A stretch of DNA of 64,000 nucleotides from Butyrivibrio sp. (GTDB lineage Bacteria > Bacillota > Clostridia > Lachnospirales > Lachnospiraceae): contig JAEEXE010000009.1 of assembly GCA_016291375.1 (NCBI GenBank), positions 1-64,000 on the forward strand, given 5' to 3'. Positions 8,997 to 42,293 of the stretch are shown one piece after another. How positions within the stretch are numbered: the stretch's first letter is position 1; every line of letters begins with the position of its first letter. The notes beneath the pieces are model-generated. The model had not been told where the DNA came from, searched no databases, and worked only from the letters and a program-made list of their open reading frames with translations. Position numbers and translations under genes: made by a program.

Positions 8997-9024
8997 ATCT
9001 TAATTCCCCATACAACAGCCTTTA

Positions 9025-9903: not shown

Positions 9904-9943
9904 AACTAAAGTCCTTCTTTCCTCATGTCGCTGTACAAACTTC

Positions 9944-10855: not shown

Positions 10856-10914
10856 AAAAACTTTACCTCAAAAAACTATACTGCAAAGCTGCTCCGGTAC
10901 TACGCCGCGCCTTA

Positions 10915-19752: not shown

Positions 19753-22700
19753 TTATCCTATTCCGTAGGCGTCCTTCTGCTCCTGTGGCATTTCGTGATC
19801 CTTTAAGATGTCTTTGGCTTTTTTGATAAGGTCGTCTAGTGTGTAGTGGCGGAAGTAGCCGAGGTGATATTTATATTCTTTATCCTTGGATATACATGGG
19901 AATGTATCTGTTGGTGAGTGGTAACCCATGGAGGATCTTACGCATCCAAGTTCTATAAAGCTATCCGTATCTATTATGCTTGTCATCGAGTTCCCTGGCA
20001 TATACAAATACATGCAAGATTGATCAATATCAAAAGTAAATTCACAATCATTTCCGGTTACATCTCGTCCCGCGTAATCTGATTGTCCTACAGTCTCCCC
20101 CGTTAATGCATTATATCTACAGAGTTTTCCGTCAAAAAATGGTACTAGTAAAAGCTCTGTACCGCTTTTTTTATCACTAAAAAAAGCGGGTTTAAACATT
20201 CCTACATCAAGCGATGGAATATCTGCCTGTTCTTTTCCTTTAATATCACTTATAACGATATCTTTTTTGTCATATGCCGCAAGTAATGTTCCGTCCTCAT
20301 TCATGGAAACATATTGAGTTTCATCCCATCCGTCATGATATTCGAAATGATATATCTCGTTTTCATCTATATCGATAATATAATCATTAGTTCCGGATAC
20401 GTAGATATATCCTTGCTTCTCGAAATAAAACAGATCCTTGATCGAAGCTAATTTTTCTAACGGAACGTGGTATCTGTCTCTTTTTCCTGAAGAAACATCA
20501 TATACTACTGCAAAATAATCGGAATTATCACGATCCATAAATACAATCTTTCCGTTATCATATTTTGGCTCAACTAAATCATGAAATGTGTGGTCATTTA
20601 GCTTTTGTTCCGTGTATTCTCCGGTATTACAGTCAATACTGTATAGGATCAGATCGGAATACAATTCTGATGCGTGATTGGTTACCAGTAATTTTCCTTC
20701 ATAGCTTCCCAATATCGAAAGATGACCAGCGTTGTTTTTACTAATCGGAAGTATTCCACTTGTCTTATAAGCCATAGTATTTGGATCAAATATATCCAAA
20801 ACAGTCTCATCTTCCTTTTTAAAAACCGTAACCGCTACATTATCATCAAGAAATGATCTGAAAAGACTCTCTACCTCAGGCGAATTTTCATAAGAAGTCC
20901 ACTCCTTATCACTTGTAAGTGAAGTATAATAAATAATTCGACTGCTGTTACGTTGCGAAACATATATACCGGCACCTGTAGCAACTTTGGTGATATTATC
21001 TGCAAAATACTTCATAACAGCGATAGAATCACTTTTACTTGGCATTGGAGGATCGATCGTCGCATCTCCGCCGTTTGAAGTTATCAATCCGGGAAACTGA
21101 TCATCTTTATTTGCATACCCATATATTATTGGACAATCTATAGCATAGTGATGCAGCTTTTCTCCGGACTCCATGTCATAAATATCGCAGACATTGCTCG
21201 AATAATAAGATACCGAATTGCTAGCCGGAGTATATATAAAGTCTGCACTGTATGAAATACCATCGTACAAAAATTCATTTTCCCACTTTACGGACAGATC
21301 GTTCGTATCAAAGCATTGAATCATCTCTCGATCGGTAGAAAATATTTTCATATTATAAAAACCTGTATTTGAAGAATTCATCTCTTCTGTAGTGTAAGCC
21401 AAAAGAAAATCACTATCTGTCGGCAAAAGAGCTGATTTAATATTTAAAGACGATATCCCCGTATCTTTTATTATTGCCTTGTCCGCTATTATGTCATATA
21501 TTCCAATCGCACAATTTTCTTCATGCGTTATACAGGTAAATGCAATCTTGCTATTGTCGGGCGATAAAGAAACATTTCCTAAACCGCGCGAACTATTCAT
21601 AGAATCTGTTATTTCCGCAGGAAGCTTATACTCCGCAATTTCTGATCCGTCAGTTTGAGAAAGAATACAAAATTCGCCGTCACTTAACGCTATTAAAAGG
21701 TTTCCATCCGGTCTTATATTAACTCTTCCCGATACTGATTCATCCGAATATTCTTTTTCCCATACAATGCTGCCATCATCGGGATTAATACACTTTAAAA
21801 AATGAGCTCCAATTATCAATACTTTTCTGCCCGAAAGAATCTTATAATTCTTGGGAACAGAATTACTGTCATCAGGAACAAAGCTATACAATTCGTCATG
21901 AGTCTTTGCATCCCATATCTTGATAATGCCTTTGGTATCCATAGCTACAAAGAGTTTTTCCTCAGCACTTGTATCCATCGTGTTTATAGCATTAGGCATT
22001 TCATAATTCCAAACAGGCGCAATATTTGCAGAAGATATCGGAATATATGCCATTGTGGCGTCTGTTATCGCTTTAACAGCCTCATCGGTAACAGGTCTGT
22101 CGGGCATCTCTTCATTCGGAAGGGAATAAATAGCCAGATGAAGCGCATCCATTCTGTCATCTTGGTCCATCAGTTTCTGCGCCTCATTTGCAAGGTATTT
22201 GGACTGGCTTATGAGCGAAGCGCGGTAGCTATCGTTAACCTTCTTATTGCTGTAGATCATGTATCCTGCAAAAGCAAGCGTCACAACCATTACCGCAGCA
22301 AAAACAGCAGTCAGTCGTTTCATCTTGTACTGACGCTGTCTATCCATAAGTTCATTATATTCACAACCTATAAGAGCAGCTACAAGGCGCGGCAACTCTA
22401 CGTTCTTGGCTTCTCTTGCAGGAAGTCTAAAGTCACAGGAAAGAGGTTCTACAGGGATTGTCTCAGTTTCTTCGATCCCCTGCTCATTGACTCTTGTGAC
22501 TTGTTTATTTTTTAAAATCTCAGGCACAACATCTACAGGCTCGCCATCAGCCAGAACCGTAAGGATCTGATCCTGAGTATGGTTCTGTAAAAAGAGCTTT
22601 ATCTCTCTTTCAACCCACATTGATTTGCATGTGTTGGTTGAACAAATAACAATAAGATAGTCGGCATTCTCAAGAGCCTCAGCGATAGTCCCGCTGAGGT

Positions 22701-22881
22701 CGCTTGTAATCGGAAGTTCATCAGTATCCCTGAATATCCTCTCTATCCTTTTAACGCCGGTCTTTTTTTGTATCTTGCGCGGAATGTGATAGTGCTCAAG
22801 ACTGCGCTCGATCGTAGCTGCGATCTTGTTATCAAGCTCAGCGTGTTTGTATGAAATAAATGCATTGTAGTGTGTACTCAT
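19753..22881 (-). CDS. TIR domain - TM - extracytoplasmic beta-propeller protein, copy 1
   Basis: TIR: MSTHYNAFISYKHAELDNKIA...LIVICSTNTCKSMWVEREIKLF; TM AVFAAVMVVTLAFAGYMIYS; WD40-like repeats (IKIWDAKTHDELYSF). Start set at 22881 (MSTHYN) with AAGGAGT upstream. Confidence 0.88.
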   Translation of the reverse strand: MSTHYNAFISYKHAELDNKIAATIERSLEHYHIPRKIQKKTGVKRIERIFRDTDELPITSDLSGTIAEALENADYLIVICSTNTCKSMWVEREIKLFLQNHTQDQILTVLADGEPVDVVPEILKNKQVTRVNEQGIEETETIPVEPLSCDFRLPAREAKNVELPRLVAALIGCEYNELMDRQRQYKMKRLTAVFAAVMVVTLAFAGYMIYSNKKVNDSYRASLISQSKYLANEAQKLMDQDDRMDALHLAIYSLPNEEMPDRPVTDEAVKAITDATMAYIPISSANIAPVWNYEMPNAINTMDTSAEEKLFVAMDTKGIIKIWDAKTHDELYSFVPDDSNSVPKNYKILSGRKVLIIGAHFLKCINPDDGSIVWEKEYSDESVSGRVNIRPDGNLLIALSDGEFCILSQTDGSEIAEYKLPAEITDSMNSSRGLGNVSLSPDNSKIAFTCITHEENCAIGIYDIIADKAIIKDTGISSLNIKSALLPTDSDFLLAYTTEEMNSSNTGFYNMKIFSTDREMIQCFDTNDLSVKWENEFLYDGISYSADFIYTPASNSVSYYSSNVCDIYDMESGEKLHHYAIDCPIIYGYANKDDQFPGLITSNGGDATIDPPMPSKSDSIAVMKYFADNITKVATGAGIYVSQRNSSRIIYYTSLTSDKEWTSYENSPEVESLFRSFLDDNVAVTVFKKEDETVLDIFDPNTMAYKTSGILPISKNNAGHLSILGSYEGKLLVTNHASELYSDLILYSIDCNTGEYTEQKLNDHTFHDLVEPKYDNGKIVFMDRDNSDYFAVVYDVSSGKRDRYHVPLEKLASIKDLFYFEKQGYIYVSGTNDYIIDIDENEIYHFEYHDGWDETQYVSMNEDGTLLAAYDKKDIVISDIKGKEQADIPSLDVGMFKPAFFSDKKSGTELLLVPFFDGKLCRYNALTGETVGQSDYAGRDVTGNDCEFTFDIDQSCMYLYMPGNSMTSIIDTDSFIELGCVRSSMGYHSPTDTFPCISKDKEYKYHLGYFRHYTLDDLIKKAKDILKDHEMPQEQKDAYGIG

Positions 22882-22895
22882 TTTCAAACTCCTTA

Positions 22896-24257: not shown

Positions 24258-25268
24258 CTATATAGCGTTCGGTAACTTAAAGCCAAAGAACTTTTCTATA
24301 TACTTATTAATTCCTTCACTTCCAAAGAAAAGTCTGGGGTTTGATAAATAATAAGATATTAAAGTGGCTACTATGATTCCCAAGAGTATGGATATGATCC
24401 AAAATAATACTCTTGCAACAATTGACCCTCCGGCATTATTTAGTAACCACGTCTTACGAACAGCAAAAACAAACAGTGCACAAAATACAAATGTTATCAG
24501 CCAATATATTATTATTCTATTATCAATAGTTAACTTGCATTTTATACCAAGGAGTTTCTTTACATCGTCTAGACTGCAATCATATCCCTCTGGATGTCTC
24601 GCACTAGGTCTTATTACGGTACATAATAATTCCTCGGAATTATCAAGCTCGTATGTCCAAAAATATGTTTCTTTATCTTTATAATTAAGAGGCAAATAAT
24701 TAAAAGTCCCCTTTTTAAAGCTCATATTCTTTATTTCATCACCGATCCATATTCCATAGTATATATCTCCATGATCCTGTGTTCCGGGAATATACCAATA
24801 ATGCGTAAAGCAATCAAATATAATTCCCATCATAAAGTCATACTCATGCACAAAGCCATCGCAATATTCATATTCTACGCTTACACGATTACGTTCCTCA
24901 TTTTTTTGATATAATTCCCCAGATTTTCTATCAAATTTATAAGTCACTATTCCTAAATCAGATTTATCTGATCTAGAAACACCCCATAGAACAGCATCTT
25001 CCCAATCATATCTCTGCACAACTTCTATATTCAGGTCTTCAATAGCATCTTCTACCGAAGCGTACCTTCCCAAAGCCTCCCCCGCGGCATTCTTTGCCTC
25101 ATCATCTTTCGGATCAAAATATATAGAGTTATATTTGGGATTCTTTACGTTCGTTGCATAATTTCCATATCCTCCAGTGAACGAGCAAATCATTATTAGC
25201 ACTAAAACTGTCATGAATACTTTATTAGTTGTCTTCATTACCAATTTCTCCATCCTTCTAAAATTCAT
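24258..25268 (-). CDS. Membrane protein, unknown (paralog A of a tandem pair)
   Basis: N-terminal signal-like segment and two C-terminal TM segments; shares GDIYYGIWIGDEIKNMSFKKG and DVKKLLGIKCKLTIDNRIIIYWLIT with the neighbouring gene. Confidence 0.75.
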   Translation of the reverse strand: MNFRRMEKLVMKTTNKVFMTVLVLIMICSFTGGYGNYATNVKNPKYNSIYFDPKDDEAKNAAGEALGRYASVEDAIEDLNIEVVQRYDWEDAVLWGVSRSDKSDLGIVTYKFDRKSGELYQKNEERNRVSVEYEYCDGFVHEYDFMMGIIFDCFTHYWYIPGTQDHGDIYYGIWIGDEIKNMSFKKGTFNYLPLNYKDKETYFWTYELDNSEELLCTVIRPSARHPEGYDCSLDDVKKLLGIKCKLTIDNRIIIYWLITFVFCALFVFAVRKTWLLNNAGGSIVARVLFWIISILLGIIVATLISYYLSNPRLFFGSEGINKYIEKFFGFKLPNAI

Positions 25269-25291: not shown

Positions 25292-26332
25292 TTACAGCGC
25301 CGCTGGATTGTTGGGTATAGTTATTCCAAATATTTTTTCCACTAATCTGACCGTTTGCAAACCATAAACAAGCCTTGGATTATATATAAAATTGATGATC
25401 AGCAATGCCACAACAGCACACAACACTATTGATATCAGCCAAAACAGTATCTTCTGTATTGATATCCCGGATACTGTTTGATTAAGCATGACAGATTTGA
25501 TGATTGATAAAATTGTCAGCAATGTCAATATAACTGTTATTATCAAATATATGATGATGCGCTTGTCGAAGGTGTATTTACACTTCATGCCTAAAAGTTC
25601 TTTTACATCTTTCGTATTATAGCTGAATCCTTCATCATCATCTTCCATGATGGCTTGACCAAGTATCTCCATAGAATCTTCTAGTTCATATGTGCATAAA
25701 TAAGCGTTTTTTCCCTCATACTTATCTATAGGACTGTATTCTAGTTTTCCTTTTTCGAATGATATATCTTTTACTTCTTCTCCAAACCATAATCCATAAT
25801 AAATATCTCCGATTTTTCCAGCTTCACTTTTACCTTGAGGGATAAAATGTCCACCACCTGCGCTCGAACACATAAGATCAAATATAGCCAAATCATCACA
25901 CCAGTCGGCATCCCCTATGTTCTTATAGTATAACGTCACCGATATGCTGTTCTCTGCCACTACTTTGTATAATTCTTTTGTATCGGTTTTATAGCGGTAG
26001 CACACCAACACATCTTCAGACTTCCAACCTTCAAGAACCAGCAAATATATTTCGTCGTTGGATCTATATTCTTTTAATGTATCAAGTCCTATATATTCCT
26101 TTACATCATCTATCGATTCATATTTGTCTATATACTCAAAATCTTCCGGAGCATCATTTGTTTCTGTCGCTAGTACAGGCAAGTAGGCATCTTTTCTGCC
26201 AAATACCTTGTAACGCGGGGAAGATATATACTTAGTGATAAAAACGTTAATAGGTATTATTATTGCAACTATAAGTAAAACAAAAAGGATAATATTAATT
26301 TTCTTCATTAATTTGATCCTCCAATCCAGCAA
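25292..26332 (-). CDS. Membrane protein, unknown (paralog B)
   Basis: Shares GDIYYGLWFGEEVKDISFEKG and DVKELLGMKCKYTFDKRIIIYLIIT with 24258-25268. Confidence 0.75.
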   Translation of the reverse strand: MLDWRIKLMKKINIILFVLLIVAIIIPINVFITKYISSPRYKVFGRKDAYLPVLATETNDAPEDFEYIDKYESIDDVKEYIGLDTLKEYRSNDEIYLLVLEGWKSEDVLVCYRYKTDTKELYKVVAENSISVTLYYKNIGDADWCDDLAIFDLMCSSAGGGHFIPQGKSEAGKIGDIYYGLWFGEEVKDISFEKGKLEYSPIDKYEGKNAYLCTYELEDSMEILGQAIMEDDDEGFSYNTKDVKELLGMKCKYTFDKRIIIYLIITVILTLLTILSIIKSVMLNQTVSGISIQKILFWLISIVLCAVVALLIINFIYNPRLVYGLQTVRLVEKIFGITIPNNPAAL

Positions 26333-26405: not shown

Positions 26406-29400
26406 TTATCCTATTCCGTAGGCGTCCTTCTGCTCTTGAGGCATCTCGTGATCCTGTAAAATGTCTTTGGCTTTTTTTATAAGATCGTCTAATGTATAGT
26501 GACGGAAGTAGCCAAGACGATTTACGCCTTCTTCATCTTCACAAGTACAGACGAATGTGTCTGTGGGAGCGTGATAGCCTAAAGATCCGTAAACGAATCC
26601 AATATCCATATAATTATCAATATCAATTATGTTAATCATCGTCGAGTAATGTAAGTATATGCAAGAATGCTCAGAGTCAACAGTGAAAGTACTATTGTAA
26701 TCAGGACCACCTGCTGTAAAATAATCCGTCTTCCCTATCAGCTCGCCTGTTGATGCATTATATCGACATAGGTTTCCATCTGTAAACGGAACAATAAGGA
26801 TCTCTGTGTTAGTTCTTTTTTCTTTATGGAATACAGGTCTATGTGTCTCTACACCCAATATCGAAATTGTAGCTTTTACATCTTCTTTATCTACCGTGCT
26901 TATATCTTTTATCACGATATCTCTTCCGTCAGAAGCCGCGATAAGTGTACCGTCTTCATTCATTGATACGCATACCGTTCCGTCCCATTTATTGTCATAT
27001 GATACAGACCTTATATCATTTTTATTGATATCAACTATATAATCCTGCTCCCAAGCAAGGTAAACAAGGCCTTGTTTTTCAAAGAAATATAATCCGCCAT
27101 CATTGCATTTTTCTTTTTCCGAAGTACAATACTCATCTGTTTCCCCTGTGGAAACATCGTAAATCATCACTATAATGCCCTTAGACTCGTCTTCCTCCAC
27201 AAATGCTATTTTACCGTTTTCATATTTCACATAATCTGTATAATCAATGTGATCAAAATAGTATTTATTTATTCTATCGGCTGTAACTTCTCCGGTCGAA
27301 TAGTCTACTGTTATTAGTCCAAGAGTGCCACCGGTTAAACGTGAATATGATAAAAGCAGTTTCCCTTCATAAGTACCAAGGAAGTCCATATGATAATATT
27401 CATCACTGTCGTCCGATAGCTCGACACTTTGAGTATGTTTTTTCAAACTGGGATCATAAAGATCAAGTATTACACTTTCTCCTTCTTTTTCAGTAAGAAC
27501 TGCCGCAATATTTTCATCAAGATACGATTTATAAATATCCACTGTCTCCGGCGCATCTTCATATGAAGTCCAATCTCTGTCGTAAACATCCGCGGAATAC
27601 CTGATAATACTGTTACTGTTTCTCTGATTAACAAATACGCCTGCCCCCATAAATACATTATTAATATCACCGATAAAATATGAAACAGTATTAATTGTAT
27701 CTTTATTTTCAGAATTAAAAATATCGCTGAAAGCCATACCTCCGCTTTCAGTCACGTAATATATCCTATCGTCTTCCTCATCAAACAATGCGTATACAAC
27801 CGGATCTGCGAAAACATATTCCTGAAGAACTTCACCTGTGGACAAGTCCCAAACTTCCGATCTATCACCCGAAAAATAAGCGAGTGAATTATTCTTATTT
27901 AGATTGATTAGATCTGAATTTAATTCGACATCAGTGACCAAAAACTCTTTTTCCCATTTTTCGGATAGATCCGTCGGATCAAAGCAAATCACCTTATCAT
28001 AATCCTTTTGGGTTGTTGTTGTATTAAGGAAAGTATGATTCGAACCCCAAGTATCCATATTATACGTAACCACCAGATTATCTGCAGTAGGAAATGAAAT
28101 ATCCGTTATATAATCCGCATTTAAATCTTCTAAAACTGCTTTTCCCGATTTAATGTCATATACACAAATCCCACCTTTTTCTTCACTGTTATAAACACTA
28201 AAAGCAATCTTACTGTTGTCAGATGATAAGACAGTATTCCCGATGGAAACTGATGATAAAGTAAAATCGCTAAATGATTTATACCAATCATCCGTCATCT
28301 CTTCAGGAAGCGTATACTCACTTACTATCTTCCCGTCTGCCGGAGAATAGACACGAAACTTACCTCCACTCAAAGCCAGAAGAATATTACCGTCTGATGT
28401 GAAATTAATACTTTCGTCAACAAGATTTTCATTTATAAAATAATCTTCCCAAATGACTTCTACGGTTCGAGAATCCAGGCATCCGATAAAATTAGTTCCA
28501 ACAACAATCATCTTATTATCCGGTAAAAACTCAAAATTTGAAGCAACCAGAAAACTGTTGGGTGGAATATATTCCGCGAGTTTTTTATTGTTTTTTAAAT
28601 CCCATATATTGAAATTTCCCGCCTTATCCAAGGCCGCAAAAAGTTTATAATCAGGCGATGCCGCCATTTTTACGACTGTGCTCGGAACTTCGTAATTCCA
28701 TATGGCTTGCATATTAGAAATATCTTTAGGATCATAAGCCAGTGTTGCCTTTGTTATCGCACTGACCGCCTCTGTAGTTACCGGTCTGTTCGGCATTTCT
28801 TCGCTCGGAAGAGCGTGAAGTGCAAGGTGAAGAGCGTCAATTCTGTCTCCACTATCAAGCAGTTTCTCGGCCTCATTCGCAAGATACTTGGACTGGCTTA
28901 TAAGAGAAGCTCGGTAACTTTCATTTATCTGATTCTTGCTGTAGAACATATATCCGGCGAAACCTAGAGCGATAGCCAAAATTCCCGCAAAAACAGCAGT
29001 CAGTCTTTTCATCTTGTACTGACGCTGCCTGTCCATAAGTTCATTGTATTCACATCCAATAAGTGATGCAGCCAGACGCGGAAGCTCAGTATTCTTGGCT
29101 TCTCTTGCAGGTATTCTAAAATCACAGGAAAGAGGCTCAACAGGCACAAGCACTGTCTCTTCGATTCCCTGTTCGTTAATTCTTGTGACTTCTTTATTCT
29201 TAAGTATCTCAGGCACAACGTCGACGGGCTCGCCATCAGCCAGCACTGTAAGGATCTGATCCTGCGTGTGATTCTGTAAAAAGAGCTTTATCTCTCTTTC
29301 TACCCACATGGATTTGCAGGTATTGGTCGAGCATATAACTATAAGATAATCGGCGTTTTCAAGAGCTTCTGCGATAGTTCCGCTAAGATCGCTTGTAATC

Positions 29401-29570
29401 GGAAGTTCATCAGTATCTCTGAATATCCTCTCTATCCTTTTAACTCCGGTCTTCTTTTGTATCTTACGCGGAATATGATAGTGCTCAAGACTTCGCTCGA
29501 TCGTAGCTGCGATCTTGTTATCAAGCTCAGCGTGTTTGTATGAAATAAATGCATTGTAGTGTGTACTCAT
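26406..29570 (-). CDS. TIR domain - TM - extracytoplasmic beta-propeller protein, copy 2
   Basis: First 126 aa identical to copy 1; TM TAVFAGILAIALGFAGYMFYS; same C-terminal tail LGYFRHYTLDDLIKKAKDIL. Start set at 29570 (MSTHYN). Confidence 0.88.
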   Translation of the reverse strand: MSTHYNAFISYKHAELDNKIAATIERSLEHYHIPRKIQKKTGVKRIERIFRDTDELPITSDLSGTIAEALENADYLIVICSTNTCKSMWVEREIKLFLQNHTQDQILTVLADGEPVDVVPEILKNKEVTRINEQGIEETVLVPVEPLSCDFRIPAREAKNTELPRLAASLIGCEYNELMDRQRQYKMKRLTAVFAGILAIALGFAGYMFYSKNQINESYRASLISQSKYLANEAEKLLDSGDRIDALHLALHALPSEEMPNRPVTTEAVSAITKATLAYDPKDISNMQAIWNYEVPSTVVKMAASPDYKLFAALDKAGNFNIWDLKNNKKLAEYIPPNSFLVASNFEFLPDNKMIVVGTNFIGCLDSRTVEVIWEDYFINENLVDESINFTSDGNILLALSGGKFRVYSPADGKIVSEYTLPEEMTDDWYKSFSDFTLSSVSIGNTVLSSDNSKIAFSVYNSEEKGGICVYDIKSGKAVLEDLNADYITDISFPTADNLVVTYNMDTWGSNHTFLNTTTTQKDYDKVICFDPTDLSEKWEKEFLVTDVELNSDLINLNKNNSLAYFSGDRSEVWDLSTGEVLQEYVFADPVVYALFDEEDDRIYYVTESGGMAFSDIFNSENKDTINTVSYFIGDINNVFMGAGVFVNQRNSNSIIRYSADVYDRDWTSYEDAPETVDIYKSYLDENIAAVLTEKEGESVILDLYDPSLKKHTQSVELSDDSDEYYHMDFLGTYEGKLLLSYSRLTGGTLGLITVDYSTGEVTADRINKYYFDHIDYTDYVKYENGKIAFVEEDESKGIIVMIYDVSTGETDEYCTSEKEKCNDGGLYFFEKQGLVYLAWEQDYIVDINKNDIRSVSYDNKWDGTVCVSMNEDGTLIAASDGRDIVIKDISTVDKEDVKATISILGVETHRPVFHKEKRTNTEILIVPFTDGNLCRYNASTGELIGKTDYFTAGGPDYNSTFTVDSEHSCIYLHYSTMINIIDIDNYMDIGFVYGSLGYHAPTDTFVCTCEDEEGVNRLGYFRHYTLDDLIKKAKDILQDHEMPQEQKDAYGIG

Positions 29571-29581
29571 AAGGCGTCTTC

Positions 29582-31219
29582 TCAATATTCTTTCTTCACA
29601 TAGTTATCAAAAATAATACTATAATCCGAGATATCAAAATCAGTGTATGTGACATATTTATAAAAGTCATCAATAGGTTTAACTTCAGTACATTCATCAG
29701 TAATAGTTTTAATATTCTCATCGGAATCAATCGAAAAAAGCGTTTTTCGACCTTTGACAAAATATAACTTATCAGTATACAGATCATAAGCCGCAGACAG
29801 ATCCAAGCCGGAATCTTGCTGATATATCAAATCTGCTTTTTCATCCGTCACATGATATATCTCATTGGCCTCATTAACTGTCCATATATTTGATAAGTCA
29901 CTGTCAGCGTAGATATTTTTTATTCTATTCATTCCGTAAAGAATCTTCTTATCCGAAGCTACGCCATTTTCAAAAGTAGCCAAGTGAACATTCTCTCCGT
30001 CATGAAATACAAATTTGTACCTGCCGTCTCTTCCGCTTATCGGAACGCACTTAGTTACTCCATCATATGCAAGCGGAACTTTATTTAAATCCTTATCAAG
30101 CCAATAACGCTTGCCATCCTCAGCTACTACGCAACCCTCAAAAGTGTTGTCGTCGAACACATAAGCTTTGTCATATATATGATAGCTTTTCAGGTAGATG
30201 CCGCCTTCATCCCCATATGTTAAAAAAGAACTGTTTTTTGATTCGGGAGAATAATAACTTACTGCTCCCGATGCTCCCAGCGTCAAGAGTTTATCCATAT
30301 CACTGTTGAGGAACAGCGCCGGTTTAAGATCTGAAAATAAAGACTGCATTTCCCCCTTGTATATGCAAGATACATCACCTATTGAGTTCAACAAAAAAAC
30401 TGTTGTTCCGTCATTACTTACACTTAAGATATCAAATTGATCCGAATATAATTCTTCATATTGACAGCATGATACTTCTTTGCCATCTACCGTACTGACA
30501 ATCACCTCTGCACATATATCATCTTTGTTCAGACCTCTTTTCCTATAACAAATGTACTTTCCGTTTGGTGAAAGAACGGCTTCTTTTACAGTTTCTTCGC
30601 AACTAAATTTGCACTCTTCCTTAGTGCTTAAATCTATAACTTTAAGTTCGTATTTTCCATTTATATAATATGCGTACCCGCCATTAAAACTCATGCCAAG
30701 ATCAACCGCATGTCCTATCTTCTCAACCGACAGGTCGTTTTTTATATAATAAAGATCTTCTTCTCGATCAGTGAAAACTCCTTCGGAAGAAAACTTGTCA
30801 AAAGAAATCTTCTTTATCTTGTCCTTATACTCATCATTTACAACCCCTGCGCTGTTATAAAAAACACCGCCCTCTTCAATGATGATATCTCCGGTATATT
30901 CCACATCATCATGATCACTTGATGAAAAAAAGCTCGGAAAATTCCTATGACCATCAAATAAAGGTACGGTAAACTTAACCCCGATAATTAATACAAAAAA
31001 TGCCAATAACGATAGTCCAAGAAAAACTGCTCTTTTCTTATCTATCCTTATCTTGGGCAGCTTAAAACCGGGAATATCCTTATCGACATTTTTATTTTGT
31101 TCACTGGTTACGGATTCATTTTTTACAGGCACTTTCTCCTGTAAATAGATAGGATTGCCACACATGGGACAATGACGTGTATTCTCATTTACTTCATATC
31201 CGCAACTGCTACATTTCAT
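29582..31219 (-). CDS. Zinc-ribbon - TM - beta-propeller-like protein
   Basis: MKCSSCGYEVNENTRHCPMCGNPIYL, TM RAVFLGLSLLAFFVLIIGVKF, repetitive beta-rich C-terminal part. Confidence 0.75.
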   Translation of the reverse strand: MKCSSCGYEVNENTRHCPMCGNPIYLQEKVPVKNESVTSEQNKNVDKDIPGFKLPKIRIDKKRAVFLGLSLLAFFVLIIGVKFTVPLFDGHRNFPSFFSSSDHDDVEYTGDIIIEEGGVFYNSAGVVNDEYKDKIKKISFDKFSSEGVFTDREEDLYYIKNDLSVEKIGHAVDLGMSFNGGYAYYINGKYELKVIDLSTKEECKFSCEETVKEAVLSPNGKYICYRKRGLNKDDICAEVIVSTVDGKEVSCCQYEELYSDQFDILSVSNDGTTVFLLNSIGDVSCIYKGEMQSLFSDLKPALFLNSDMDKLLTLGASGAVSYYSPESKNSSFLTYGDEGGIYLKSYHIYDKAYVFDDNTFEGCVVAEDGKRYWLDKDLNKVPLAYDGVTKCVPISGRDGRYKFVFHDGENVHLATFENGVASDKKILYGMNRIKNIYADSDLSNIWTVNEANEIYHVTDEKADLIYQQDSGLDLSAAYDLYTDKLYFVKGRKTLFSIDSDENIKTITDECTEVKPIDDFYKYVTYTDFDISDYSIIFDNYVKKEY

Positions 31220-31262: not shown

Positions 31263-32639
31263 TTATCCTTGCGATCCCCATAGATACTCAATCTCATTAC
31301 CCTTATTAGCGAGTATTTCAGGAACATGGTTTCCGTCTTTCATCTCATTAAGCTGAATTGCATGCGAATATGCTTTTTGTATTTTTTTTAATAAATCATC
31401 CAAAGCCAAAATATTATCTTCACTCAGCTTTATAACATATCCGCCACTAATTATCAGCTTACACTCAGTAGGATAACCCTCTTCATCTATAATCTCTTCC
31501 ATCTTTTGAACAAATTCGTCATCCCATTTTCCTATTGCTGAAAGCCCGCGCTTCTCCTCTCCCTTAGACGGAATCTCTAAATTTGCAAATGAAAGAGCGT
31601 AATCAGGTGCAATGAACCCTTCATGTCGATTACTGATCTTTACATCCCAACTTTCTTCATCCTCAAGATTATAATCAAATCTACATTCTCCAATCGATCC
31701 TGTAAGTCTAAGCGCATATTCATCTACCCTAGCCTTTAATGCTTCTTCCTCATTTTTGTACTTTGGTCTTTTTTCATAAAAAGAAGATTCCACTATAGTT
31801 TCAACCACATTGGTGTACCCACACTCATATGAGATATCCATGATAAAAGCTTTATCATATTTTTCTCTCTTACCGTATTCCAATTCAAAGCATAAATCTC
31901 GATCACGGTAGCCGATACTATCGGTCATTCTATACTTATAGTGGCCACCAGTTATAAAGTCATACCATTTTGTGTCTGCTTCAACCTGCTTAGCTAAAAA
32001 GAAATACACATCACTGAGCATAGTTACTTCATGAAACAAATCTAAAGCATCATCTCTTTCCTCACTTAAATATCGTTCTTTGTCTCTATCTTTTGTATAA
32101 AGCACCTCGCCGTTTGCTCCCAAATACAAAGCTCTCAAGATATCGGAAGAATCCTTACATCCCAAAACAGCATTTAACTCAGAAATATAGTCAAGATAAT
32201 ACTCGTCAGTCAAAATCAGCTGGTTATTATCATTCCTCATTATATGAACTAGACCCATCTGATATTTCGCAATATAATGCCAGCAATTTTCTGCCTTGTT
32301 AGCTAATCTTTTCCCGTATTTTTTATACCCACTCTGAGAATCATCTGAAAGTGCACTCTTAAACAGCTCAAGTTCCTTGCCTCTGTTCTTCTGTGTATTA
32401 TCTTCTTCCATTATCTTTTCTACGGCTTCCAAAAGACTCTCAGGGGTATACGAACTTTTAGTTATGGCGTTATTGATTTCTTCATCGGAAAGACCATACT
32501 CGGTAATACTTCTCTTTATTTCATCATCCGAAATCTGTGTATTTGAGCTTTCGGTTGCTGCCCTTGCCGGTATTCTTATTATCGAAAAAAGTGTCAAATA
32601 TAGTATTACTGTCGTTAGTATTCTTCCTGTTTTTTTCAT
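31263..32639 (-). CDS. Signal-peptide-bearing paralog of the LXG-like effector C-terminal region
   Basis: Signal peptide MKKTGRILTTVILYLTLFSIIRIPARAA; shares GLSDEEINNAITKSS, LTGSIGECRFDYNL, HEGFIAPDY, GLSAIGKWDDEF, HVPEI, LWGSQG with the adjacent 820-aa protein. Confidence 0.8.
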   Translation of the reverse strand: MKKTGRILTTVILYLTLFSIIRIPARAATESSNTQISDDEIKRSITEYGLSDEEINNAITKSSYTPESLLEAVEKIMEEDNTQKNRGKELELFKSALSDDSQSGYKKYGKRLANKAENCWHYIAKYQMGLVHIMRNDNNQLILTDEYYLDYISELNAVLGCKDSSDILRALYLGANGEVLYTKDRDKERYLSEERDDALDLFHEVTMLSDVYFFLAKQVEADTKWYDFITGGHYKYRMTDSIGYRDRDLCFELEYGKREKYDKAFIMDISYECGYTNVVETIVESSFYEKRPKYKNEEEALKARVDEYALRLTGSIGECRFDYNLEDEESWDVKISNRHEGFIAPDYALSFANLEIPSKGEEKRGLSAIGKWDDEFVQKMEEIIDEEGYPTECKLIISGGYVIKLSEDNILALDDLLKKIQKAYSHAIQLNEMKDGNHVPEILANKGNEIEYLWGSQG

Positions 32640-32665: not shown

Positions 32666-35128
32666 TTAATTACAACATTGCGCTCCCCATAATGTATCAA
32701 TCTCTGAATTCTCCGCAGCCGTTATGTCTGGTACATGTCCTCCGGTTTCCATGCTATTTAAGTTACTTACATAAGTGTATACTTTTTGTAACTCATCCAT
32801 AGAACCGCTCAGGCTTTTGTAATCTTCAGATTCAAGCGACGTTATATCAAGCCCGCCATTGACTAGTTGCTTACACAACTCAGGATTGCTCATGGCAGTA
32901 GCGTTGTTATCATCGCTCGCCCATGCATCAATAGTTGCATTGACCTCTTTAGTAAATTCAGGATCCCAATTACCAATAGCCGATAAACCATGCTGTTCAT
33001 CCGGGGTTGATGGAGTTGCCATATCTGCAAATGATCCAAGATATTCAGGTGCAACAAATCCATTATGCGGAGAACAATAAGCAATATCTCCTGCCGTTGT
33101 ATCTGTAAGATCATAGTCTATTACACACCTTCCGGCGGATCCAGATAGTCTTACCTGATAGTAATCTGCCTGTGCGTTTTGAGCATCCTCAACTCCTGTA
33201 TAAGACAAATACTTGTATGTGTCATATACTAACTGAGAAGACTGTGTGTAGTACTCCTTCGCGTCAGAAGCTGTCACGCTTTCCGTTCCATCGGAAGCAT
33301 ATTTGTAATCCAGATCGATCAGATTCTTTACATATTTGTCCATATATTTTTTATATACGTCTCCGCTAACACTTCCTTCATGATAGGAGTATGCTGCATC
33401 GTAGGCAAATGACACTGTTCCTGCTCCGGCAGCTGCATTCCCAAGCATTCCACCAGCTGCGGCTCCGCCAAGTACGAGTCCATCCTTCACGACCTTTTCT
33501 GCAAGATTTCTCTGCTCTTTCTCTGCAGCCGCGACATTTTCAGAAAAATCGGATGCGCTTAATGCTTCATCAAAGTTGCTGGCTCCGCATATATATTCTG
33601 ACGTCATAGTAAATGTCCTGCTTCCGTTATCCATCCAATAGCCATAATGGTTGATCTGATCTGTGGAGTTAATGGTAAGTACCAATCCGTCATTATAACC
33701 CACATCAGTGATTTCATACGTATGTCTTCTGTTTGATTGAAAAAAACCGTACTCTTCGTTATCTATCTGACATGATAAATAAGTAAACATGTCATTTAGA
33801 ATCATATTTTTCTTGTAGTCTCTATAAACGACCGAGTACCCCGCACAATCTTCCGCTGTTATTGCCGCTAAATAGTTACTATCCATAGCGACCATACATG
33901 ATCCCATATTTAATGCATTTATTACCTTTTCGGGATTCTCTGCTGCCAATGCGGCATTAAGCTGAGCCATGTACTCATCAGTATTTCCATATAAAGCCTC
34001 AGGTCCCTCTGCCGACTCGCCTAACATTACGGTTCCCATTATATATTTCGATACTCCATACCAGCACATAGTTTCCCCATCATCAAGTTTGTTGGTGTAT
34101 TTATTATATGCATCTGTAGCATCGCCGCTAAGCACCGCTTTAAATAATGTCATTTCTACACCATTGTTTTGATATACTATATCTTCAGCAACAATGGCTT
34201 CAGATAAGCAAGCAAGCTCCTCTAAAGTAAGAGAACTCTTACTTAAAGCATTGTTTATCTCCTCATCCGTTAATCCCATCTCATGAAGCTCACTTCTAAT
34301 AGCTCTCTGTAATACTATATTTTGCTGATCACCTTCAATTTCGGGATATTCATACGTTCTTGAAAAATCAAATGCTAGGCTAGTATCTATTACTCCCGCA
34401 AGTTTATCGCATATCGTTGTATTAAAAGCATCTACCCCGGTGACATATGTTTCAAATGAACCTAGAAGCGTATCTAATCTTGGATTCTTGTCACAATCAG
34501 TTTGAATAGCGGTACACTCCTCTGAAACATCCAATTCTTTTGCTTCTTCAGTTTCTAATTGGCTTAATATATCTAGAAGCTCGCCTTTTTTTTCTGCTAT
34601 GTTTGTAAATCTTAAAATTGCATCTTCTGTATCGGAGCTTATAACGCCACTGCTATAATATGTTTTATCCAAATATAATTCGGGGCACATTGACTGCTGT
34701 GCCCCTCCGTGTAGAGTTGCGGCCACACCTGCTGATGGGAGAACATAACCTACATATTGAGAAGATCCTTGAAGTATTTCGCAAAAATTCTCGCAACGCA
34801 ATAATAGATTCTGCGCTAAAAGTGAAGCACTACAAAGAGTTCTCCAGACAATTGTCGTCCTCTCATATAATAATTCAAATTTTGTATCCAAAAAACACTC
34901 TCCGTTACCCGTAAATTCAAAGCTTGCTTCTCCACTTGAATTATCCCTGGTTTCAGTTATATTGGTCTGAGTCTGTGTAGCCCATCCGTCAAGTGTATTT
35001 TTTAGAGAATTATACTCGTCTATCGCTTTATCAATTACATTTTTATTCAAATAAATCGTCACTTCCGAATTGGCCAGTGATATATCTCCAGTTCTTGTTA
35101 TTTTATCTTGTTCGTTATTATTCCCCAT
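32666..35128 (-). CDS. LXG-like T7SS effector candidate, copy 2
   Basis: Helical N-terminus with LDGW, preceded by two small helical genes; Gly/Ala-rich segment GLVLGGAAAGGMLGNAAAGAGTVSFAYD; conserved C-terminal motifs. Confidence 0.7.
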   Translation of the reverse strand: MGNNNEQDKITRTGDISLANSEVTIYLNKNVIDKAIDEYNSLKNTLDGWATQTQTNITETRDNSSGEASFEFTGNGECFLDTKFELLYERTTIVWRTLCSASLLAQNLLLRCENFCEILQGSSQYVGYVLPSAGVAATLHGGAQQSMCPELYLDKTYYSSGVISSDTEDAILRFTNIAEKKGELLDILSQLETEEAKELDVSEECTAIQTDCDKNPRLDTLLGSFETYVTGVDAFNTTICDKLAGVIDTSLAFDFSRTYEYPEIEGDQQNIVLQRAIRSELHEMGLTDEEINNALSKSSLTLEELACLSEAIVAEDIVYQNNGVEMTLFKAVLSGDATDAYNKYTNKLDDGETMCWYGVSKYIMGTVMLGESAEGPEALYGNTDEYMAQLNAALAAENPEKVINALNMGSCMVAMDSNYLAAITAEDCAGYSVVYRDYKKNMILNDMFTYLSCQIDNEEYGFFQSNRRHTYEITDVGYNDGLVLTINSTDQINHYGYWMDNGSRTFTMTSEYICGASNFDEALSASDFSENVAAAEKEQRNLAEKVVKDGLVLGGAAAGGMLGNAAAGAGTVSFAYDAAYSYHEGSVSGDVYKKYMDKYVKNLIDLDYKYASDGTESVTASDAKEYYTQSSQLVYDTYKYLSYTGVEDAQNAQADYYQVRLSGSAGRCVIDYDLTDTTAGDIAYCSPHNGFVAPEYLGSFADMATPSTPDEQHGLSAIGNWDPEFTKEVNATIDAWASDDNNATAMSNPELCKQLVNGGLDITSLESEDYKSLSGSMDELQKVYTYVSNLNSMETGGHVPDITAAENSEIDTLWGAQCCN

Positions 35129-35148: not shown

Positions 35149-35469
35149 TTAATGTTCTTCAACACTCACATCGTCACTTAATTCTGCATCAATATCATTA
35201 AATGTAATCTGATAGTTCCCAAGTAGATCTGCATATGTATCATAATACTTTAATGTAAAAGCTAAATATGTTGCTATTGTGTTAGCCGCAAACAAAAAAT
35301 AATCCCCTGAACTTCCAAGCCAGTGATTAGCTACTGTTATAGTATTCTCTACATATTGCTCATGCTGTGTTACTCCTTCTGCAGAAAGCCCTTCATAACT
35401 AAATTGCAAATCTATTATTTTAGAAGTATGAAGATATTTATCTCCATTCTCTACAGTAGATCTGTCCAT
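35149..35469 (-). CDS. Small WXG100-like / LXG-partner (Lap-type) protein
   Basis: VENTITVANHWLGSSGDYFLFAANTIATYLA; paralog of 41219-41533. Confidence 0.75.
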   Translation of the reverse strand: MDRSTVENGDKYLHTSKIIDLQFSYEGLSAEGVTQHEQYVENTITVANHWLGSSGDYFLFAANTIATYLAFTLKYYDTYADLLGNYQITFNDIDAELSDDVSVEEH

Positions 35470-35487: not shown

Positions 35488-35847
35488 TTATCCATCCTGC
35501 TGCGCGGCAGCGGCTTCCTCCGCTGCTTTCCTCTGCTCTTCTTCCCACTCTCTTTGCTCTGCCTCAAGCCTTTCCAACAAAGCTTGAAGTTTTACCACAA
35601 GCATCGCTATTTTTCCACTTATGGATTGTGATTTAGTTCCAATTTGTCCATTCAGATCCATCATAACTGTTCTGAAATTGTACTGTGGAATCTTGACAGA
35701 ACTTCTATATGCCACATCCAAATCATTTAAATCTTCTGTAAGAGTTACATTCTCTCGAAGCATTTCTCCAACCTTATCTTGAGCATTATCTAGTCTTTCT
35801 AAATCTCGCTTCACTCTTGCAATGTCTCCACTTCTATCGCTTGCCAT
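35488..35847 (-). CDS. Small helical LXG-partner (Lap-type) protein
   Basis: MASDRSGDIARVKRDLERL...QREWEEEQRKAAEEAAAAQQDG; paralog of 41553-41921. Confidence 0.75.
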   Translation of the reverse strand: MASDRSGDIARVKRDLERLDNAQDKVGEMLRENVTLTEDLNDLDVAYRSSVKIPQYNFRTVMMDLNGQIGTKSQSISGKIAMLVVKLQALLERLEAEQREWEEEQRKAAEEAAAAQQDG

Positions 35848-37588: not shown

Positions 37589-38743
37589 TTACTCTTCACT
37601 CGGAACATCCTCAACCCAAGCAAGGCCACTGTTAAACGGGGATGCATCCTTATACTTTGGTTCTATAATCCATCCGTTCTCCACTGAATAATATCCATAT
37701 AAGCCATCTTTTTTTACAGGGACGATGCCTTCCTCGGATATATTTAGTATATCTTCATACTGACATGGCACTACCTCTTCACCTTTTGTATTGATCACGC
37801 CATCTAAGCCATCTTTATTCTTAACAGTCGCAAACCCATTAGTAAATTCTTGTGCGTTTTTATATATCGGATCTATGACATATTCCCCTTCGGTATCGAT
37901 GTATCCATACAATCCGGTTGTTTTATCTTCTACTCTTGCAAGTCCATCACTGTACAATTTTTCGTAAACAGTATATCCCGGCAGGCCGAATTTATCGTCA
38001 GATAAAGCTTGATTTTCAAGATTAATTAGTCTTGCTCCTTCTTTTTCATTTAACTGAGCAAAAGCTCTTCCTTCACGAAAATCTGTCAACCCTCTATATT
38101 GGGGTTCAATAATGTACTCACCCTTTTCGTTGATTACTCCTCTAAGCATATCCTTTGAGCATACAGTAGCTACGCCATCATCAGTGAAGGCTCTCGCTAA
38201 TATATAATCGGCTTTGATTACCATTTCTCCATCAATAGTCATGTATCCCCATAATTCTGTTTGCTTGTCCTTTATAGGAAATAGCCCATTTGCTCCCGGC
38301 GGACCAATAATATCAATAATATCAGTGACTCCATCCATGTCATACGGAATCTTTGATATTAGTTTCATCTTTTCATCCAAAATCTCAATTCCGTCATCGG
38401 TCCCACTAATGAATATAGCCTTATTGTCATATGTTCCCACTTCAACCATAGTTATCTTAAAAGAAACATCTCCAATAGCTTTACAGTTTTTATCGATAAA
38501 ATACACTTCCTTATTACCATAATTATAAGTTGGTGTTTTATCAACCCTTGCTATTCCATACCGTTTAAACACCTCCGGGTCTTCAGACTCAAAAACTTTG
38601 CTTACTTTTTCCCCTGAAATATCTATGTAATACTTACCGGATATCATATCCTTGTTGCATCCAACCAGAGTTCCTACAGCCAATATCCCTATGAATACTA
38701 TCGCTGTAACGCTTATTATAGTTTTCCTTAATTGCTTACTCAC
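37589..38743 (-). CDS. WG-repeat (KWG) lipoprotein
   Basis: Lipobox IGILAVGTLVGCNKD; repeats GLYGYIDTEGEYVIDPIYKNAQEF / GLYGYYSVENGWIIEPKYKDASPF. Overlaps the 3' end of the LXG-like gene by 8 nt. Confidence 0.85.
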   Translation of the reverse strand: MSKQLRKTIISVTAIVFIGILAVGTLVGCNKDMISGKYYIDISGEKVSKVFESEDPEVFKRYGIARVDKTPTYNYGNKEVYFIDKNCKAIGDVSFKITMVEVGTYDNKAIFISGTDDGIEILDEKMKLISKIPYDMDGVTDIIDIIGPPGANGLFPIKDKQTELWGYMTIDGEMVIKADYILARAFTDDGVATVCSKDMLRGVINEKGEYIIEPQYRGLTDFREGRAFAQLNEKEGARLINLENQALSDDKFGLPGYTVYEKLYSDGLARVEDKTTGLYGYIDTEGEYVIDPIYKNAQEFTNGFATVKNKDGLDGVINTKGEEVVPCQYEDILNISEEGIVPVKKDGLYGYYSVENGWIIEPKYKDASPFNSGLAWVEDVPSEE

Positions 38744-41186
38744 ATTGATTACCCCACAGTTCTAATATGGTACCATCAGCCTTTGCAGCCGGTTCAGGAC
38801 TTATATCAGGATCTGTTGCACAAACAGTTTTATATACCTCTTGCACTTTATTTAATGCACCGTATGTCTCTTCCAAGCAGTTATCATTTACTTTAATGAC
38901 TTCCTTTTCAACTCCGTTTACTTTTATCGTTTCCGTTTCCTTGAATGATGAAATATTATATTCTCCGCTGATGATAGCCTTGCATAAATCCGGATTCTGT
39001 ATTTGTTTACTATCTGCCCAAGCATCTATTGTATCATTCATCTTTGTTGTGAATTCTTCATTCCATTCTCCCAGCGTAGCTATACCTTTAGGATTATCTA
39101 TTGCGGCCATATATTCCGGAGCCACCATCCCATTATGAAGCGCACAAAAACGCACTTTCGCATCTTGTCCGTCAGAAAGGTCATAATCAACATAACATGC
39201 ACCAACGGAACCTACCATCTTCGTCAAAAGATGATCATGTTGATCTGCTAGAGCATCCTCCACACCTGTATACGTAAAATATTTATATGCATCAAAGGCT
39301 TCCTGTGAAATGGCAACATATTTTTCTGTATCACCTGTAGTATCTAGACTTCCCAGCTCTATGTATTTTTTTGCAAGCCTATCACCATGCGGCTTAAAAG
39401 TATCCACGCTAATATTCTCTTCATTAACACTAAAAAGCGTATCATAAGTGAGCGCACCTACTTCCGCTCCAACAGCCGGATGTCCACACTTTCCACCTAT
39501 ATATGCTCCTGAAATTACCATTCCTCCTCTAATCATTTTATTGCCAAGTTGTTTCTGTTCTAACTCTGCAGCTTCAACCAATTCTTCCATATTTCCATCA
39601 TCCAAAATATTACCCGCTGCCAATGGACCAACAATATATTGTGCGCTCATCTCGAATGGTTTATGTTCACCTTTTTTGTCTATTGAATCAATAGTTAGAG
39701 TCAATCCGCGTCCTTCAAAATATGAAGCTTCTGTGATTTTATAGTTAGGTTTATCTAAGTAGACTTCATAAATTCCTTCCTTTCCAAGTCTCGTACATCC
39801 AATATAATATTGTTTTTTCAAATAACCAAACATATCCGTCATGACACAATTCTTATGATAGTCATTAAGTAATACACCATGCAACGGAGTCCCGTTTTCA
39901 TTCATTGCTACAGCCATATTACTACTCCATGTGACTTCAACTGCTCCGTCATGGATATTATCAAGAATATCCATGGGGTTATCACATGCCAATATTGCAT
40001 TCATTTGATTTATATATTCTTCTGTATTTCCTTTTAATGCCGATTCCTCAGCACTACTATTCTCTATATATGATGTCCCCATTATGTAAGCGGCGACACC
40101 TATCCAGCATGCTTTTCCTTCACCGTTAAGCTTATCGGCATATTTATTATAGCCCTGCTTTGCATTTCCGCTAAGCACTGACTTAAACAACAGTATTTCT
40201 GTTCCACCATTATGATACAATTTATCCTCAGCATGTATAGCTTCAGCTCTCGCTGCAAGCTCTTCCAATGTTAACGAACTCTTATTTATAGCATTTTTTA
40301 TTTCTTCATCTGTTAGTCCCATCTCATGAAGTTCAGCCATAAGTACAGCATTCAAGATCATGTTCTCTTCTTCCGGATCGATCTCCGGATATTCATATGT
40401 TCTTGTGTTATCAAAAGCATTCGCGGTTACTATTATCTTTGAAAAGTCATCACTTATTGTTGTATTAAAATTATTAATGCCTAAAACATAATCACAAAAA
40501 GCCTTATAGAGTTTTGTTAATCTTACCCGCTTTTTGCAGTCATCTTCTATTGCCTCACATTCTGCCGAAATATCAAGTTTTCTTACCTTTAGATGACTAA
40601 GCAGCTCTACAAGTTCATCTTTTTGTGTTGATATATTTTTATAATTTGAGACCGCATCCTCAGTATCTGTTGATAAAGAGCCGCCTCCTTCACCATAATA
40701 TGCCTTGTTTAAATAAAGTTCAGAACACATCGGAGTCTTCTGGGTCGCCACATTTGGCGAAAAATAAACCGACACCCCAGCTGTAGGTAAAATCTGTCCT
40801 GAATATTCTTCATTTCCTTGCAGTATTTCGTAGAAACTCTCACAAAGAAGTAATAATTCTTTCGCCATATCTGAAGCCAGTCTCATTGTTTGTGTCGCAC
40901 TTACTGTTTTATGCTTCAGTTCAGCATACTCGGTACAATTATGCAAATCCTCTGCAAAAGTGAGTGCCTGACTCGCATCTCCATCCGAGCTATCTTCTAA
41001 ATCTTTTTTTCCAGATTGTGCAAGCTCTTGCCATCCATCAAGCACTCCCTTTATTGTCACATAATCATCTATTGTTGCATCGAGATAATCCTTATGAAGC
41101 CAAAGTTCGACTGTAGAATTATCAAGAGAATTTTCTTCTGTTCTATTTACCTTATCAATTGTATCTGTTGTATTCTTCTTCCCCAT
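38736..41186 (-). CDS. LXG-like T7SS effector candidate, copy 1
   Basis: Paralog of 32666-35128: VLDGWQELA, ELHEMGLTDEEIKNAINKSSLTLEELA, GGMVISGAYIGGKCGHPAVGAEVGALTYD, C-terminal LWGNQCE. Confidence 0.72.
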   Translation of the reverse strand: MGKKNTTDTIDKVNRTEENSLDNSTVELWLHKDYLDATIDDYVTIKGVLDGWQELAQSGKKDLEDSSDGDASQALTFAEDLHNCTEYAELKHKTVSATQTMRLASDMAKELLLLCESFYEILQGNEEYSGQILPTAGVSVYFSPNVATQKTPMCSELYLNKAYYGEGGGSLSTDTEDAVSNYKNISTQKDELVELLSHLKVRKLDISAECEAIEDDCKKRVRLTKLYKAFCDYVLGINNFNTTISDDFSKIIVTANAFDNTRTYEYPEIDPEEENMILNAVLMAELHEMGLTDEEIKNAINKSSLTLEELAARAEAIHAEDKLYHNGGTEILLFKSVLSGNAKQGYNKYADKLNGEGKACWIGVAAYIMGTSYIENSSAEESALKGNTEEYINQMNAILACDNPMDILDNIHDGAVEVTWSSNMAVAMNENGTPLHGVLLNDYHKNCVMTDMFGYLKKQYYIGCTRLGKEGIYEVYLDKPNYKITEASYFEGRGLTLTIDSIDKKGEHKPFEMSAQYIVGPLAAGNILDDGNMEELVEAAELEQKQLGNKMIRGGMVISGAYIGGKCGHPAVGAEVGALTYDTLFSVNEENISVDTFKPHGDRLAKKYIELGSLDTTGDTEKYVAISQEAFDAYKYFTYTGVEDALADQHDHLLTKMVGSVGACYVDYDLSDGQDAKVRFCALHNGMVAPEYMAAIDNPKGIATLGEWNEEFTTKMNDTIDAWADSKQIQNPDLCKAIISGEYNISSFKETETIKVNGVEKEVIKVNDNCLEETYGALNKVQEVYKTVCATDPDISPEPAAKADGTILELWGNQCE

Positions 41187-41966: not shown

Positions 41967-42293
41967 TTATGCTTCTACGTAAAAATTAAGATCAATTCCA
42001 TCTTCGATAAGTGAATTATCAACTGCTTTTCCGGTTCTAGCCGCTTCATCGAGCGCCAGTCCAACTTGATTAATTTTTTCCGGATATTTCCCAACAAGTT
42101 CCCTTGATTGATTATATTTAGTCAAAAAATCTCCACGAGCTTGACCTGCAATCGAGTTTAAAACTTGAGTGTTCATTATTTCGTCAAGTGTTCCTAAAAG
42201 TGTTGAAAGATTTCCGGCCAACGATTGATATGCTCCCGCCTGAGACTCCAAATTACCCGGGGTATAACTAATAGGTGTTAAACTTATTTCCAT
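41967..42293 (-). CDS. WXG100-superfamily-like small protein without a WXG motif
   Basis: ~108 aa, helical, directly downstream of a clear WXG100 gene. Confidence 0.6.
   Translation of the reverse strand: MEISLTPISYTPGNLESQAGAYQSLAGNLSTLLGTLDEIMNTQVLNSIAGQARGDFLTKYNQSRELVGKYPEKINQVGLALDEAARTGKAVDNSLIEDGIDLNFYVEA

Follow-up and report, generated by a model that had tools for sequence, protein, structure and literature searches.

Immunity proteins are usually unrelated to the toxins they counter, and how new immunity originates is an open question. The stretch of Butyrivibrio sp. DNA analysed here (GenBank assembly GCA_016291375.1, contig JAEEXE010000009.1, 64,000 nucleotides (nt); hereafter the window) carries a type VIIb secretion system (T7SSb) locus, which comprises EssC, a WXG100 gene and effector genes, each with two small helical genes before it and a further gene downstream. 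The gene behind one of these effectors encodes a protein of 458 amino acids (aa), referred to below as 458. This protein has kept the scaffold of the effectors' toxin region, has lost a block inserted into that scaffold, and carries a predicted export signal of its own.

The 458-aa gene and its locus

The open reading frame (ORF) of 458 occupies positions 31263-32639 on the minus strand and opens with an ATG at 32639, 26 nt past the stop codon of the gene for an 820-aa effector. A GGAG motif, read as the ribosome-binding site (RBS), lies 10 nt 5' of the ATG, the reading frame is intact, and 43 nt separate the 3' end of the gene from a Zn-ribbon gene. Because this spacing is short, we infer that the 458-aa gene and the effector gene form one operon. 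The features of the locus are as follows.

31263-32639, minus: proposed immunity protein of 458 aa, a toxin scaffold lacking the membrane hairpin (BLASTP, profile alignment, AlphaFold)
32559-32639, minus: predicted signal peptide of 458, residues 1-27, with an AxA site (sequence and hydropathy)
31770-31775, minus: junction of 458 residues 289/290, site of the absent 108-residue effector block (alignment)
32666-35128, minus: 820-aa effector, proposed cognate toxin of 458 (BLASTP)
32669-34303, minus: toxin region of the 820-aa effector, homologous to 458 (BLASTP and model)
33215-33538, minus: effector residues 531-638, the helical hairpin block missing from 458 (model and alignment)
33404-33484, minus: Gly/Ala zipper within the block, residues ~549-575 (sequence)
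34304-35128, minus: N-terminal delivery domain of the effector, residues 1-275 (same N-terminus on unrelated C-termini elsewhere)
35149-35469, minus: small helical partner gene, Lap-like by position, 106 aa (paralogous set)
35488-35847, minus: small helical partner gene, Lap-like by position, 119 aa (paralogous set)
37589-38743, minus: WG-repeat gene, lipoprotein-like, in the probable immunity slot behind the 816-aa effector and overlapping it by 8 nt (PF14903, E 2.8e-47)
38736-41186, minus: 816-aa paralogous effector (39% identity to the 820-aa effector)
41967-42293, minus: WXG100 protein (PF06013, E 1.7e-6)
42719-47230, minus: EssC-type T7SSb ATPase, 1503 aa (84% identical over 467 aa to the homologue in Butyrivibrio INlla18)

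The N-terminus of 458, MKKTGRILTTVILYLTLFSIIRIPARAA, is by eye a textbook Sec signal, and the predicted signal peptide reads MKKTGR-ILTTVILYLTLFSII-RIPARA/A, the slash marking the cleavage site. The most hydrophobic N-terminal 13-mer of 458 has a hydropathy of 2.24, compared with 0.65 and 0.06 in the two effectors; the value for 458 falls within the range of the window's exported proteins, while that of neither effector does. A first-pass annotation of this DNA had described an ORF with a signal peptide here. The ORF is real and its Sec-type N-terminus is predicted by both sequence and hydropathy, with the strand now corrected to minus. No match to 458 was found in Pfam, NCBIfam or PADLOC, including their curated immunity families. 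A conserved pair of cysteines, C119 and C319, suggests a possible disulphide.

A toxin scaffold without its hairpin block

Comparison of 458 with the 820-aa effector by BLASTP aligned residues 290-457 with effector residues 639-817 (37% identity, E 4e-38) and residues 41-305 with 277-546 (30%, E 9e-28), and matches to the 816-aa paralogue reached E 9e-25 and 9e-19. On these alignments the similarity is far beyond chance, in keeping with the earlier report that 458 matches the C-terminal region of the effector. Aligned to a profile of the toxin region, 458 falls into two segments, 41-289 and 290-458, with profile positions 259-366 skipped, so that 458 joins directly at 289/290 where the effector has 108 further residues (531-638). 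The insert at this site measures 98-109 residues in all five close effectors and 0 in 458. About 27 of the 108 residues in the 820-aa effector are Gly/Ala-rich; the Gly/Ala zipper is clear in the 820-, 816- and 544-aa copies, and in the 834- and ~780-aa copies the hydrophobic segment is kept while the zipper is weak or absent. The toxin C-terminal region is a two-part scaffold with an inserted helical block of 98-109 residues, hydrophobic or zipper-bearing. A missing Gly/Ala-rich block had been noticed before and put at ~150 residues; a block with the zipper is indeed absent, but it is shorter, and Gly/Ala-rich over a quarter of its length.

The predicted structures agree with this anatomy. 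An AlphaFold2 model of mature 458, built from a six-sequence alignment, gave a confident scaffold (pLDDT 85.9, pTM 0.85), in which a helical N-terminal half leads into three strands and, past a short loop at the excision point, into two more strands and a helical C-terminus. The model of the 820-aa effector is weak overall (pLDDT 56.6), but the elements of its C-terminal scaffold follow one another as in 458, except that a long helical hairpin (residues 526-662) replaces the short loop. The fold of 458 had no structural match in the PDB or in BFVD (viral structures), and its sequence had no match in the PDB.

Ancestry

Identity between 458 and each effector lies between 24 and 40% in either half. 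In the N-terminal half 458 is nearest the ~780-aa effector of INlla18 (40%; clade support 100/99), whereas in the C-terminal half it is nearest the 820-aa effector (39%; identity to the ~780-aa effector is 24% here). The C-terminal tree places the ~780-aa effector away from 458 and leaves the position of 458 weak. A recent duplication of the 820-aa gene was ruled out by the identity range and by the grouping of the N-terminal half with the INlla18 effector. By these comparisons 458 is an old paralogue of the toxin family and no copy of its neighbour; descriptions of it as a duplicate, made from the toxin itself, were right as to paralogy and toxin-family scaffold and too strong as to its origin from this effector. 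Since its end branch (1.37) is no longer than those of the effectors (0.23-1.88), 458 evolves by this measure no faster than they do, and its scaffold is under constraint.

This constraint bears on one alternative, in which 458 would be an orphan toxin cassette: a C-terminal module displaced or decaying after effector recombination, with a signal peptide arisen by chance or acquired. Orphan C-terminal copies are common in these loci: Butyrivibrio genome X503 has an N-terminally deleted 544-aa copy, G026 has fragments, and other Butyrivibrio T7SSb loci hold Rhs-type duplicates. A hydrophobic N-terminus is missing from all the copies amenable to scoring, however, and the complete 544-aa orphan retains the hairpin, while 458 has an intact frame, an RBS and a predicted signal peptide, has lost a single structural block cleanly, and keeps its scaffold under constraint. 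The orphan cassettes of the Rhs and contact-dependent inhibition polymorphic toxin systems (on polymorphic toxins in general, PMC3482391) are likewise stand-alone copies of a toxin C-terminus beside the full toxin; they retain the toxic part and have no export signal, in contrast with 458, which lacks the hairpin and has a predicted signal. We therefore regard an orphan origin as unlikely.

The effector family and its probable immunity slot

Each effector of the window and of INlla18 is preceded by ORFs of 119 and 106 aa, which form paralogous sets that no family model names. Pfam LXG (PF04740) was not found in the 820- or 816-aa effector at E<=1, so Pfam does not bear out the earlier description of the N-terminus as LXG-like, and the putative T7SS-substrate status of both proteins rests on context. 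Because the N-terminus they share is joined to unrelated C-termini in two INlla18 proteins, we infer that the first 275 residues are a delivery part and that the remainder is a polymorphic toxin region. The C-termini of these two proteins (L057:7892-9643 and L015:12734-13999 / L063:3-983) are probably peptidase-like, possibly of C39/papain type; the 583-aa INlla18 effector had no Pfam match. Once three divergent X503 effectors are added to the profile (A6, below), the toxin domain itself occurs with at least three kinds of N-terminus, namely that of the window, another that is long and helical (X503) and Rhs repeats (G063). At L013 ~9300-9550 of X503, a deletion fuses the start of the Lap-like gene region to the toxin C-terminus, which yields the orphan 544-aa toxin.

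The toxin domain is rare, being present in 4 of 79 Butyrivibrio genomes, and its close profile had no match in any other genus searched. No homologues were found on phages, plasmids or viral contigs. Thirteen toxin-domain copies had a readable 3' neighbour, and directly 3' of eight of them stands a WG-repeat protein: the window 816-aa effector, the INlla18 834-aa effector, the X503 copies of 544, 1206 and 1025 aa, two remnants in G026, and one copy in G063 (C44; by eye, partial ORF). The six WG neighbours tested match PF14903 at E<1e-33, and most WG neighbours have a predicted lipobox or membrane anchor. The five other neighbours are 458 itself behind the 820-aa effector, a 215-aa membrane protein behind the ~780-aa effector, a 326-aa protein behind an 864-aa effector, an LRR_5 protein in G063 (C42), and an array of five genes in G134, described below. 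The syntenic 544-aa copy of X503, 67% identical to the 820-aa effector in its N-terminal half, shares its downstream Zn-ribbon and TIR-like genes with the window, and at the X503 position corresponding to 458 lies a frame-split WG gene. In G033, WG genes are present in the absence of this toxin, a pattern familiar from orphan immunity genes. This recurrence behind the toxin domain, together with the toxin-free copies, makes the WG-repeat protein the likely immunity protein of the domain; a literature search found no paper on WG repeats as T7SS immunity. Behind the 820-aa effector it is 458 that occupies the WG protein's probable immunity slot. The WG-repeat proteins share with 458 this slot and a predicted extracytoplasmic location, by lipobox or anchor in their case, but are beta-repeat proteins with no homology to the toxin, whereas 458 shares its scaffold. 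Several further WG-repeat proteins in G063 lie away from its toxin-domain contigs (L103:7606-9693, L102:1248-2447), one of them 695 aa long.

Position in the operon, a predicted extracytoplasmic location and a scaffold in principle able to pair with the toxin would also suit an accessory role for 458 in secreting the effector or stabilising it outside the membrane, as a post-translocation chaperone or docking factor. We think this improbable, the least probable of the readings considered: the other Butyrivibrio effectors of the family with a read 3' neighbour have no such paralogue, although several share the delivery domain, and the gene already has Lap-like partners beside it. Across 17 additional downstream regions of Butyrivibrio T7SSb loci, no paralogue of a toxin C-terminus bearing a signal peptide was seen; the duplicates within those loci are Rhs-type orphans without a signal.

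A parallel array in another genus

A search with a broader profile, A6, which combines the toxin profile with three divergent X503 effectors, matched G134, a genome of a different Lachnospiraceae genus. Here five tandem genes (8372-11387) lie 3' of the gene for a 636-aa effector (L100:6429-8339) and encode proteins of 167-205 aa, each consisting of a positively charged stretch, a transmembrane (TM) helix and a copy of effector residues ~469-636. The positive-inside rule predicts an N-in, C-out topology. The copies match the effector at 60% (E 3e-61), 46% (E 8e-41), 60% over 81 aa, 34% (E 4e-24) and 33% (E 2e-21). They start just after a hydrophobic segment of the effector, 404-439, and lack the hydrophobic hairpin, and their boundary is the one at which 458 lost its block. 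Among pairs without synonymous saturation, dN/dS between copies is 0.12-0.35. The C-terminal module was found in none of seven other genomes of the genus.

From its sequences, the array is an independent parallel to 458, with anchored copies of a toxin C-terminus behind a related effector, and in G134 the C-terminal module alone seems sufficient. Strings of non-identical paralogues are a known pattern of T7SS immunity genes (PMC9484751). The esaG, tsaI and tipC strings described there resemble the G134 array in being tandem, divergent paralogues, located beside the toxin or elsewhere. Homology to the toxin is not described for those families, whereas the G134 copies and 458 have it.

In a further genome, G412, a 179-aa protein (L101:4825-5364) with an N-terminal TM helix has a C-terminus that weakly matches the central strands of the scaffold (profile 181-238, E 0.005 in the genome), and is possibly another anchored scaffold piece.

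Probable immunity from the toxin scaffold

The locus has the marks of a T7SSb effector-immunity pair: secretion machinery at the locus, an effector with a conserved N-terminus and a polymorphic C-terminus, and a candidate gene directly 3' of it. We favour immunity for the position of 458 in the slot, the loss of exactly the presumed membrane-active block, and the independent array in G134. On this reading, which we hold to be probable, 458 is an exported form of the toxin scaffold, without the warhead, that would serve outside the cytoplasm as immunity protein against the T7SSb toxin from whose scaffold it is built. The 820-aa effector would be a secreted antibacterial toxin of a gut- or rumen-type bacterium that acts on membranes through its inserted hairpin. 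Sec would carry 458 to the outer face of the membrane or to the wall zone, where its scaffold, chiefly the C-terminal module, would pair with the scaffold of toxin arriving from sister cells and block insertion or oligomerisation of the hairpin, a dominant-negative capping. Alternatively, 458 could occupy the membrane docking site of the toxin. Direct pairing is preferred because the five divergent G134 copies look like recognition of varied toxins and not of one fixed receptor.

Four observations weigh against this reading. A 458-type protein was found once in the genomes searched; 458 lacks a lipobox and any evident anchor, in contrast with most WG proteins; the G134 module is only a distant relative, with profile E values of ~1e-6 to 1e-4 in an 830-protein set; and the LXG-like start of the G134 effector (L100:6226-6429) lies partly in another frame than the 636-aa ORF, for which reason that effector may be broken or mis-assembled.

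The compartment fits immunity, since the Gly-zipper T7SS toxins EsxX and TspA depolarise membranes from outside and need protection in the membrane or outside the cell (PMC12744356). In the Staphylococcus aureus EsxX and the TelE/TipE systems (PMC12744356, PMC10434224), a T7SSb effector with a hydrophobic Gly-zipper segment likewise adjoins its immunity genes, and immunity to the secreted form acts outside the cytoplasm, as proposed for 458. The EsxX immunity proteins ExiAB (DUF5085 proteins) and ExiCD (polytopic membrane proteins) are not reported to be built from the toxin, whereas 458 shares its scaffold.

The C-terminus of EsxX is toxic from outside when fused to a Sec signal (PMC12744356), so exported toxin regions can act, and 458, predicted to be exported and sharing the toxin scaffold, might itself be a re-routed effector or a second toxin component, Sec-secreted and acting on other cells alone or with the 820-aa toxin. 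Yet 458 lacks the block that holds the hydrophobic or Gly-zipper segment, lacks the delivery domain and has no immunity gene of its own behind it, and a secreted partner would leave the anchored G134 array unexplained. We consider this unlikely, slightly more so than an orphan cassette. Of the two possibilities raised at first, an immunity protein or decoy and a former effector re-routed to Sec, the evidence of gene position, lost block and G134 array favours the former, though it supports it in part.

Yeast killer toxin precursors and wtf poison/antidote pairs are precedents for protection by a toxin's own polypeptide in variant form. These are eukaryotic, unrelated proteins in which the antidote comes from the same gene and not from a separate, re-routed paralogue.

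A literature search found no T7SS immunity protein homologous to its toxin, subscription papers and preprints lying outside its scope. If 458 is the immunity member of an effector-immunity pair, as we think likely, it would be novel in sharing the toxin's scaffold, the known T7SS immunity proteins compared here being unrelated to their toxins. More tentatively, and with slightly more doubt than belief, we suggest that such immunity is recurrent in Lachnospiraceae T7SS loci, with at least two origins, in which the hairpin is removed, the remainder is exported by a Sec signal or TM anchor, pairing is homotypic and the WG protein is replaced. If true, a toxin with a removable warhead and exported copies of its scaffold would offer a concrete route by which immunity evolves from the weapon, and a search rule for immunity genes against membrane toxins: the toxin domain minus the hairpin, plus an export signal.

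Other observations

Two membrane-anchored ORFs of the window, of 336 and 346 aa (24258-25268 and 25292-26332, minus strand), are homologous to a 326/338-aa pair in X503 (L060:6827-8873) that lies directly 3' of the 864-aa effector. The window homologues lack that effector and, for this reason, resemble orphan immunity genes. Large proteins that begin with a TIR-like motif, FISYKHAELDNKIAA, are encoded at 19753-22887 and 26406-29585 (minus strand) and on L013, L065 and L077, and recur beside T7SSb immunity regions in several Butyrivibrio genomes. In genome G001, the 171-kb T7SSb-bearing contig C10 (L012, L015) is probably circular, because its two ends share an exact 284-base overlap; the join falls within an effector gene.
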